64,000 nucleotides of DNA from a virus: positions 50,091 to 114,090 of the IMG/VR virus record IMGVR_UViG_3300043774_000178; one strand, 5' to 3'. Numbering within the stretch: the first letter of the stretch is position 1; each line of letters begins with the position of its first letter. Position numbers and translations under genes: made by a program. Positions 6,713 to 50,260 of this stretch are shown piece after piece. The notes beneath the pieces are model-generated. The model made no database searches and was not told where the DNA came from. It worked only from the letters and a program-made list of their open reading frames with translations.

Positions 6713-7086
6713 AAGAATTGATTTAAGTTTGGTCTAAAATAGTTTGGACCTTTAGTTATCTTTCCATCTGCTCTCAAGATAGGTTTTCCATCTTCTCCAA
6801 GTTTACTCATATTACTGGAATGGATCTCATCAAATACGTCCTCAATTATGTGATGCATTCCGTGTTTTAGGATTGTACCACATAGGATATATAACATATC
6901 TCCTAGAGCATCAGCAATTTCTTCAAGAGATTGTTTAGCACATGCTTCTAAATACTCACCATTCTCTTCATCCATTAATCTGTATCTTAGTTGACTTTCA
7001 GGCCACTTAATTTTATCTGGAGTTTTTCCATTCTCTTGTCCAAAAGCATTATGGAATTCTTCTACTTTCTCAATTTGTTTTTTCAT
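6709..7086 (-). CDS. MazG-like nucleotide pyrophosphohydrolase (PRA-PH / HAD-Cof-like type)
   Basis: At 125 aa this matches the size of phage all-alpha NTP pyrophosphatases. The EENGEYLEA stretch (about 41-49) and DALGDMLYILCG (about 60-71) give the ExxE and ExxD-like metal-binding pattern of the MazG/PRA-PH fold. The C-terminal part with KITKGPNYFRPNL is typical of the phage subgroup. It would hydrolyse NTPs or dNTPs to monophosphates plus pyrophosphate, either to clean the pool or to blunt host signalling. A terminator lies just upstream, so this gene and its small partner are probably transcribed from their own promoter at about 7.09 kb. Confidence 0.8.
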   Translation of the reverse strand: MKKQIEKVEEFHNAFGQENGKTPDKIKWPESQLRYRLMDEENGEYLEACAKQSLEEIADALGDMLYILCGTILKHGMHHIIEDVFDEIHSSNMSKLGEDGKPILRADGKITKGPNYFRPNLNQFL

Positions 7087-36523: not shown

Positions 36524-36790
36524 TTAGTAATCAAGTTTCTGTATTTCTTTTTGGATAAATTCTAGTCTTGCCTCTAGATTTCCATATTCATTAAATGCTA
36601 GTAATTCTGCATCACTAAGTTGTGCTTTATATTCTTCAACTGGTTTATTCATATAGTTACCTAAATGAATATATTCTTCTTGACTAATAAGATTTGATTC
36701 TAACAATCCTCTTAACCAGCCCATTATACCGCCTCTAAACTTATCTTTGTTTTGCACCATAAGTTTTAATAGTTCTTTGTCTGCTCTCAT
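36524..36790 (-). CDS. Unknown 88-aa helical protein
   Basis: Predicted helical, starting MRADKELLKLMVQNKDKFRGG and ending with charged heptads. It is the first coding gene after the structured non-coding block at 36.8-37.55 kb, so its transcript may begin in or beyond that block. Confidence 0.72.
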   Translation of the reverse strand: MRADKELLKLMVQNKDKFRGGIMGWLRGLLESNLISQEEYIHLGNYMNKPVEEYKAQLSDAELLAFNEYGNLEARLEFIQKEIQKLDY

Positions 36791-36825
36791 AATATTATTA
36801 ATTAAGTTTCTATAAGTTATGTTAA

Positions 36826-37545
36826 GTAAAACTACAAGTCAAACTCTGCTTTACAGTATGAGAGTTTATGCCTGAAACCTTGTAGTCTACTCAACAACCA
36901 GAAGTGTTAGCCCGTTGCTGTCCCTAGGGAGTGCTGGCATGTGGTTACTGGTTAAATACCCCTCTGCACTCAGTTGTAATAGTATTGGTTGTAGCTCAAT
37001 TTAAAAGTAAACATCATTCAAGATAGCGTACTGTGAACACTTCTATATATCTATAGAGCTATCACTATCTTATAGTTTAAATTAAATCATAACTAAGAGT
37101 TCTTATACTACTCTTAAATCAACTATTACAACTGCTCACCCTTGGGAAGTGAGAATGGTGCATTAGTACCTTGCATACTCTTACAAGGATTAGTTATTTC
37201 TGTCTTCCAGTGGTACTTCTACCTGCAATTTTAACTACTCCAATTGCATAAATTACTTTAAGTATAAAGCTTTCGCATTTCACTTATGCCTTTCTTACAA
37301 AGATGATTAGTCTTCTCAACCTTTACAGAGGTTTAGTTAGGAGTTACATACAGCTAACAAGTAATCATCTTGTTTCTTATAATCTTACTGTAATAAGATT
37401 AAATCACTGACATAAATAGTACTCTCACAAGGTTGCAACCCTTGAGGATGTAGTCATTCCATTAAGAGCCCACAGTAATAGACTGACGAGATCTACTAGT
37501 AGCATTTCCTTACCTGCTTGGATGAGAGTATAAGCAGTTTTATAT
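36826..37545. ncRNA. Candidate large structured non-coding RNA or structured DNA element
   Basis: About 720 bases with no convincing reading frame on either strand but a dense series of inverted repeats. Stems, left to right: ACTACAAG/CTTGTAGT (36831-36886) enclosing AAACTCT/AGAGTTT; AACCAG/CTGGTT (36896-36953); TAAGAGT/ACTCTTA (37094-37116); CTCAC/GTGAG (37135-37153); CCTTG/CAAGG (37169-37188); TGCAATT/AATTGCA (37224-37248). A three-way junction follows at 37297-37373, with an outer stem of about 12 pairs and inner stems AACCT/AGGTT and GTTAG/CTAAC. Then come AATCTTA/TAAGATT (37381-37400), CAAGG/CCTTG (37428-37444) and CTGCTT/AAGCAG (37514-37537). The strand is unknown; minus matches the neighbours, and its 3' stem would run into TTTTA. 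No tRNA fits. Confidence 0.55.
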
Positions 37546-37563
37546 CATGCTTAGGATATGTCT

Positions 37564-37809
37564 TTAGATATTATCAATACATATTAATGAATCTAAGTCA
37601 GCGTATTTACCTGTGTATACTTTGCCCGACTGTGATTCTACTTTGATACTATCTTCAGAGACTTCAAGGAAATACTCTGTCTTAATATGCTTAGAAGTTT
37701 TGGGAGAATGATGCTCTACAGCATTATTGTGTCCTAATATACATCCTACAAAGAATGTAATAATAGCATAAATAGTGAATGCGAATGCAAGTTTACCATT
37801 GTTAATCAT
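37564..37809 (-). CDS. Small single-pass membrane protein (81 aa)
   Basis: The start MINNGKLAFAF is chosen. The open frame extends to 37947, but that upstream part is translated simple-sequence DNA (a Tyr/Leu run from TAT repeats). Residues about 6-27 (LAFAFTIYAIITFFVGCILG) form one membrane segment, followed by a polar domain with a C-terminal KYADLDSLICIDNI. It lies between two non-coding regulatory regions and is probably an early membrane-targeted protein. Confidence 0.6.
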   Translation of the reverse strand: MINNGKLAFAFTIYAIITFFVGCILGHNNAVEHHSPKTSKHIKTEYFLEVSEDSIKVESQSGKVYTGKYADLDSLICIDNI

Positions 37810-38146
37810 ATAATTGAGATTTGAGTTACTGAAATTAATTCCCCGGAGAATATGTGGCTCTAATAGATAATAATAATAGTATAGATAGAGATAGAGATAG
37901 TAAGTAAGTATGTATAAAGATACTTGTATATACTGACCAATAGCCATATTCTTAAATTGTATGTGGAGTATGAGTAGGGATTATTCATACTGACCAAGGT
38001 TGTTGTAGATATGTGGTGGTTGATTATCAACTAGTTAGCTCTTAATGAATCTTAATTAATCCATAGTAACTTCAATAACATACTAGTTTATCACTAGTAT
38101 ATACTGACCATGTATTGACCATACCTTTACAACCCCACTCTGTTTT
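37810..38146 (-). promoter_or_regulatory. Non-coding region with four TACTGACCA-type repeats
   Basis: No convincing gene. TACTGACCA occurs at 37931, 37988 and 38102, and the variant TATTGACCA at 38113. Also present are the palindrome GTTGATTATCAAC (38019-38031), the inverted repeat ACTAGT/ACTAGT (38083-38097), and a run of degenerate ATAGAG-type repeats at about 37867-37910. It lies between an AACAGCTCA element and the small membrane gene, so repressor or activator sites are plausible. Confidence 0.45.
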
Positions 38147-50023: not shown

Positions 50024-50260
50024 ATGGCAACTTATAAATTTCCAGAGTTTAATGTAGAGATAGTAAACCCTACAGTAACTATAAATATGAATACCATAGG
50101 AGATATGGCTATTGATCAACTGTTATCTGTAGATATAGTACTTTCTGTACCAGGAGCAACATTTGGTGTAAGAATGGAAAATATGCCATACGTTGATACA
50201 TGGGAAGATTCTGATGTACCTGGTATGGTAGATATTGCATTACAAGCATATGAAGTATAA
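50024..50260 (+). CDS. Unknown 78-aa virion-type protein
   Basis: Beta-rich (FNVEIVNPTVTINMNTIGDM) with a short acidic end. 2 bases after the DUF1566-like gene and sharing base 50260 with the next one. Probably part of the fibre or tail tip. Confidence 0.68.
   Translation: MATYKFPEFNVEIVNPTVTINMNTIGDMAIDQLLSVDIVLSVPGATFGVRMENMPYVDTWEDSDVPGMVDIALQAYEV

Follow-up and report, generated by a model that had tools for sequence, protein, structure and literature searches.

The question raised by this locus is whether a gene-free block in a phage genome encodes a structured RNA and, if so, of what kind. The block (36795-37560) lies in the 64,000-nucleotide stretch analysed here, hereafter the window, which comprises positions 50,091 to 114,090 of a 114,090-base virus record (IMG/VR IMGVR_UViG_3300043774_000178) with an A+T-rich genome. 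The large terminase, the portal and one virion protein of the window match crAss-like families, the terminase at ~25% identity to known crAss-like terminases. Genes to the left of ~40 kb are mostly on the minus strand and the structural genes, to the right, are on the plus strand; the block is located inside the minus-strand unit, ~3 kb from the divergence of the 2 gene blocks.

The original prediction, which was made from the letters of this DNA, described the block as lacking a convincing gene, as far denser in hairpins than spacers elsewhere in the window, and as a possible new structured RNA. The first of these statements was borne out, in that the longest open reading frame wholly within the block is 35 aa, and we rule out a coding explanation on this basis. 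The second was not. We observed that 150-nt windows in the block gave mean folding z-scores of -0.5 on the minus strand and -0.7 on the plus strand, which equal those of random 150-nt windows taken elsewhere in the genome (mean -0.8, sd 1.3). Folded as a whole, the block was slightly more stable than its shuffled versions when read on the minus strand (z -1.95, 0/20 shuffles), and no more stable when read on the plus strand (z -0.55, 7/20 shuffles). Since the block folds like random windows, single-sequence evidence alone does not justify a structured-RNA finding, and we dropped such statistics as evidence.

We used a neighbouring gene to reach relatives of the locus in IMG/VR and then compared short blocks of the spacer, which were found to be conserved on the minus strand while the remainder was not. 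A DNA similarity search of annotated phage records with the block gave no match. Rfam covariance models gave no match to the block at the gathering score (for GOLLD and ROOL, none up to E 5), and no family matched modules A, B or C, as described below, in the relatives; the original prediction had likewise seen no sequence link to GOLLD or ROOL. With 19 nt taken from the 3' end of module B as the probe, we obtained at least 119 matching stretches in viral contigs and 1 match in prokaryote genomes totalling 257 Gb; a probe from module A gave 79 matches, with the full A pattern at ~70 loci. Relatives among IMG/VR contigs number more than 100 for module B and ~70 for module A. The elements of the locus and its flanking genes, all on the minus strand, are as follows.

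36524..36790, minus strand: small gene of 88 aa downstream of the RNA and co-oriented with it, no family match
36831..36886, minus strand: module C, a hairpin (ACUACAAGGUUUCAGGC...GACUUGUAGU) that encloses an inner stem; 87-92% identity across ~20 loci
36951..37168, minus strand: module B, a three-way junction; 57-sequence alignment, match to covariance model R1 with E 1.5e-23
37162-37158 with 36969-36965, minus strand: P1 of module B, UGCAC/GUGCA, covarying stem
37153-37135, minus strand: P2 hairpin of module B, CUCAC-UUCCCAAGG-GUGAG, covarying stem
37134-37123 with 36982-36971, minus strand: P3 of module B, CAGUUGUAAUAG/CUAUUACAACUG, covarying stem
36983..37122, minus strand: hypervariable arm of module B, unique to the window's genome
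36964-36959, minus strand: 3' tail of module B, GAGGGG
37180..37419, minus strand: inter-module segment
37410..37540, minus strand: module A; 40 distinct relatives, covariation
37530-37523 with 37427-37420, minus strand: closing stem of module A, ACUCUCA/UGAGAGU, inside which lies a conserved UCCAAGCAGG
~37446-37512, minus strand: variable arm of module A
37444-37428, minus strand: hairpin of module A, CAAGG-GUUGCAA-CCUUG
37533..37558, minus strand: small hairpin R, with the motif CCURAGCA...AAACUGCUY, immediately upstream of module A
37564..37947, minus strand: small gene of 127 aa upstream of the RNA and co-oriented with it, no family match

The consensus of module B, drawn from 57 distinct relatives (UUAAUGCACC...UUCCCAAGG...CAGUUGUAAUA-(arm)-UAUUACAACUGAGUGCAGAGGGG), describes a three-way junction. 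In the alignment 95% of the cells are paired, versus 22-47% when the partner strand is slid by 1-3 columns, and changes on both sides occur in 14 of the 22 pairs (all five in P2, three in P1 and six in P3); 0 of 500 shuffles scored as high on every measure. Divergent copies, which were found as covariance-model matches, retain the stems by means of other pairs, for example GUUUC/GAAAC and ACUUGUAG/CUACAAGU in P3. Read on the minus strand, module B has 26 G-U pairs versus 13 A-C pairs, as expected for an RNA of that strand. The original prediction had placed a three-way junction at 37297-37373, within the inter-module segment. That junction can form and, with two testable homologues that are ~96% identical, is a possible structure; the conserved three-way junction of this locus is module B.

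A pseudoknot between the CCC of the P2 loop and the 3' GGG of module B is only suggested by these sequences. In its favour are a single double change, in which UUCAC occurs together with GAGUGG, and a subclass that is missing both the loop CCC and the tail GGG, but other variants without the loop CCC retain GAGGGG. The subclass (L150:11544-11642, L154:3518-3643 and L151:59-182) has a longer P1, UUAAUACACC/GGUGUAUUAA, and neither the loop CCC nor the tail GGGG, and looks as if a pseudoknot had been replaced.

Module A gave a similar result. Among 40 distinct relatives, 99.8% of the cells are paired and both-side changes occur in 7 of 13 pairs; 0 of 500 shuffles scored as high on every measure, slid controls were far lower, and the minus-strand reading has 6 G-U pairs versus 0 A-C pairs. 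The loop UUGCAA is invariant and palindromic, and this property would let two copies kiss. The compensatory changes in modules A and B, taken with the absence of an Rfam match, strongly support the suggestion that this phage group has a new structured RNA; on this comparative evidence the block is almost certainly such an RNA, the representative of a real and conserved modular family. The strand, the arrangement as a chain of exchangeable modules and the swapping of hypervariable arms had not been foreseen.

Two smaller elements accompany modules A and B. Hairpin R recurs between genes in the relatives, as well as before A or B (copies lie around 6550 and 6790 in L206, and at 6951 and 7805 in L003), and a U-rich run often follows it. 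Its stem occurs as GAGCA/UGCUC (19) or AAGCA/UGCUU (17), which is a paired change, and it may be a terminator, a processing site or a separate module. Module C shows paired changes (ACCACAAG/CUUGUGGU and AUCACAAG/CUUGUGAU) among about a dozen distinct relatives. In most relatives it lies directly 5' of A, but in the window it lies 3' of B, which shows that modules have been rearranged. Modules can form a chain of 500-1000 nt at one place, and the sequence between the scaffolds is not conserved. The inter-module segment has near-identical copies in L018 and L160 only (95-96%) and is exchanged as a block.

Modules A and B each consist of a constant scaffold around a hypervariable arm, which ranges from 35 to ~200 nt in B and from 23 to ~200 nt in A. 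The window's own B arm has no relative in any locus that we fetched, whereas the scaffold that flanks it is present in more than 100 loci. We found 19 pairs of loci that share an arm, at 77-100% identity, and in 18 of these the flanks beyond the scaffold are unrelated or, in a few cases, one side is too short to compare. The converse is illustrated by L301 and L309, which upstream match each other at 100% identity, over 602 and 83 nt, and yet carry unrelated arms (63 and 36 nt), downstream of which their similarity resumes; L309 also has an additional inserted segment upstream. L312, whose flanks are unrelated, has an arm with 97% identity to the one in L301. Near-identical arms in unrelated flanks, together with unrelated arms behind identical upstream sequence, indicate that arms are exchanged like cassettes, and from these alignments we hold exchange between genomes to be very probable. 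A close relative of the window, L002 (IMGVR 3300017754_000704, around 6459), is without 455 nt that correspond to window positions 36957-37412 and include module B. The breakpoints fall at module borders and the adjoining stretches are 94-99% identical to the window; either L002 has undergone a natural deletion or the lineage of the window has gained an insertion. Tyrosine (PF00589) and serine (PF00239) recombinase domains were found in 0 of 20 carrier contigs, with positive controls, so that homologous recombination in the constant sequence would be the simplest route of exchange. Compared with random pieces, the arms are marginally more structured (mean folding z -0.83 versus -0.62, p 0.04). 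Being hardly more structured than random pieces, they may be passive or may work through their sequence.

The carriers are crAss-like phages. Among 33 long records, which were chosen for A or B patterns and include the window's own, a crAss-type portal was found in 27 and a B match in 29. Wherever both were located, well-matched B copies and the portal are on opposite strands, mostly ~7-35 kb apart. Carriers have 1-4 copies of module B, often adjacent, and in most of them at a single locus; these copy numbers, the single locus and the lack of a recombinase domain in the 20 contigs searched led us to reject a mobile element. Where module A is present it lies 5' of module B, and the RNA is co-oriented with the surrounding small genes. 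A homologue of the 37564-37947 gene is found just upstream of the RNA locus in L003, L009, L195, L199, L202 and L206. The 36524-36790 gene is not conserved at this position in relatives, and the downstream gene varies between genomes, which argues against a cis role for one gene. A 303-aa protein without a PHROG or Pfam match (L004:7913-8824) lies downstream of the RNA in many relatives. In several relatives, though not in the window, tRNA genes lie within ~1.5 kb downstream of the RNA. In 9 contigs chosen by portal, several of which do not cover the locus, module A was present in 2 and module B in 0, and two portal-chosen contigs that have the upstream gene carry neither A nor B at the syntenic place. 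The known crAss-like phages FpV4, cr273_1 and PhiCrAssBcn23 gave no match to the A or B model. This patchy presence, together with the lack of B in L002, indicates that the RNA is not essential in its present form. We also observed two module B copies (L183:5710-6135) on an 8 kb contig that is binned in a Neisseriaceae MAG and is probably a misbinned phage contig.

Five relatives have a self-cleaving ribozyme match on the same strand as the modules, ~0.3-1.3 kb upstream of A or B. Four are Hatchet ribozymes of full model length (L003:6334-6470, L009:6387-6553, L013:1172-1310 and L195:6115-6251) and one is a Pistol ribozyme (L197:6503-6571). Rfam models found no ribozyme match in the window, and modules A, B and C themselves match neither the Hatchet (RF02678) nor the Pistol (RF02679) model. 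In a 2015 study Hatchet was known from metagenomic DNA only and from no completely sequenced organism (PMC4604424); Hatchet ribozymes are now placed beside a defined phage locus, in crAss-like phages. At L191:5647-5678 the DUF805b RNA family gave a match that slightly exceeds its gathering score.

What such an RNA does is a matter of weighing alternatives, and the main rivals of a trans-acting RNA are cis-acting elements and a GOLLD-like multimer. The modules could be untranslated-region elements that govern the processing, stability or translation of the polycistronic mRNA in which they lie; they would then have no role in trans, and the arms would be neutral filler in tolerant loops. Their position between co-oriented small genes, the repetition of hairpin R between genes and the ribozymes in the same leader regions are consistent with this. 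However, the downstream gene differs between genomes, modules can run together in the long chains noted above, and a neutral loop should drift, shrink and vanish, whereas the loops here are replaced by intact arms that are 94-100% identical elsewhere; we regard a purely cis-acting role as unlikely. GOLLD and ROOL are large phage RNAs that occur near tRNAs and hold a variable linker in a conserved frame, GOLLD having a variable part as well (Nature 2025, PMC12286853), and the original prediction had been reminded of them by the size and outline of the block. As an analogy this stands: the present RNA is also phage-borne, several hundred nucleotides long and often near tRNA genes, and it has variable inserts in a conserved frame, which could be the variable interior or cargo part of a self-assembling homo-oligomeric cage or multimer. 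The invariant UUGCAA loop could kiss another copy, as do the intermolecular loops by which ROOL, a phage or prophage RNA found near tRNA islands, builds its multimeric cage. As an identity it fails, since neither covariance model matches the block or its relatives, and we conclude from the sequences that the family is not GOLLD or ROOL. GOLLD is one fixed fold, known as a homo-oligomeric 14-mer cage, whereas the present RNA consists of several small modules with exchangeable arms. A cage needs one fixed fold. Here the set of modules changes by gain and loss (A can occur without B), as does their order (C can precede A or follow B), and this variable order argues against one fixed global fold; oligomerization would be a guess from the palindromic loop. 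We consider a multimer of this kind improbable.

Two readings at the level of DNA fare worse. Folded single-stranded hairpins could serve as recombination sites in the manner of integron attC sites, with a recombinase exchanging cassettes and with RNA structure that is incidental. The clean exchange of arms is bounded by an inverted repeat (CAGTTGTAAT/ATTACAACTG), and a structured boundary with an exchangeable insert is what integrons show. Against this, no integrase, as judged from tyrosine and serine recombinase domains, was found in the 20 carriers, the cassettes contain no gene, P1 and P2 covary even though they lie outside the inverted repeat, and the predominance of G-U over A-C pairs is a sign of RNA; such sites are very improbable. 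A replication origin or packaging signal, which the original prediction had offered as an alternative, would suit a block close to the divergence of two gene blocks. RNA-type covariation with G-U pairs, the lack of module B and the inter-module block in L002, and the unconserved sequence between scaffolds all speak against it, and we give it almost no credence.

To the reading in which this is a trans-acting, multi-domain phage RNA with rapidly diversifying arms, we assign an even chance on the present sequences. The minus strand would then encode a large structured RNA, in a transcription unit that would run away from the structural genes, as a chain in which modules C, R, A and B each fold on their own. 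Modules A and B are constant sockets, each built of a closing stem and a conserved hairpin, plus an opening for an arm whose sequence is almost unrelated between genomes. Ordinary homologous recombination within the constant sequence of the scaffold would let co-infecting phages trade arms, modules and the blocks between modules; the scaffold would thereby stay fixed while the arms turn over fast. The transcript would probably be cut from the operon, in some relatives by the upstream Hatchet or Pistol ribozyme. The constant parts most likely serve in assembly or in binding to a shared partner, which might be other copies contacted by way of the UUGCAA loop, and the variable arms would be presented to a fast-changing target, for example a host defence factor or a competing phage. 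More tentatively, and with somewhat lower expectation, we suggest that the whole constitutes an RNA diversity system of constant sockets and traded arms, in which each genome shows its own combination of arms against a fast-evolving target in the host or a competitor.

A literature search, with subscription journals mostly outside its scope, did not turn up any account of an RNA of this kind in crAss-like phages. What is new is the RNA family together with its layout of exchangeable arms, and we know of no precedent for the exchange of arms within a constant structured-RNA frame; a GOLLD-like function, if proven, would make the RNA less categorically novel. The crAss-like phages are a widespread and poorly understood order, and they carry here an abundant (more than 100 contigs) and apparently undescribed family of structured RNA.
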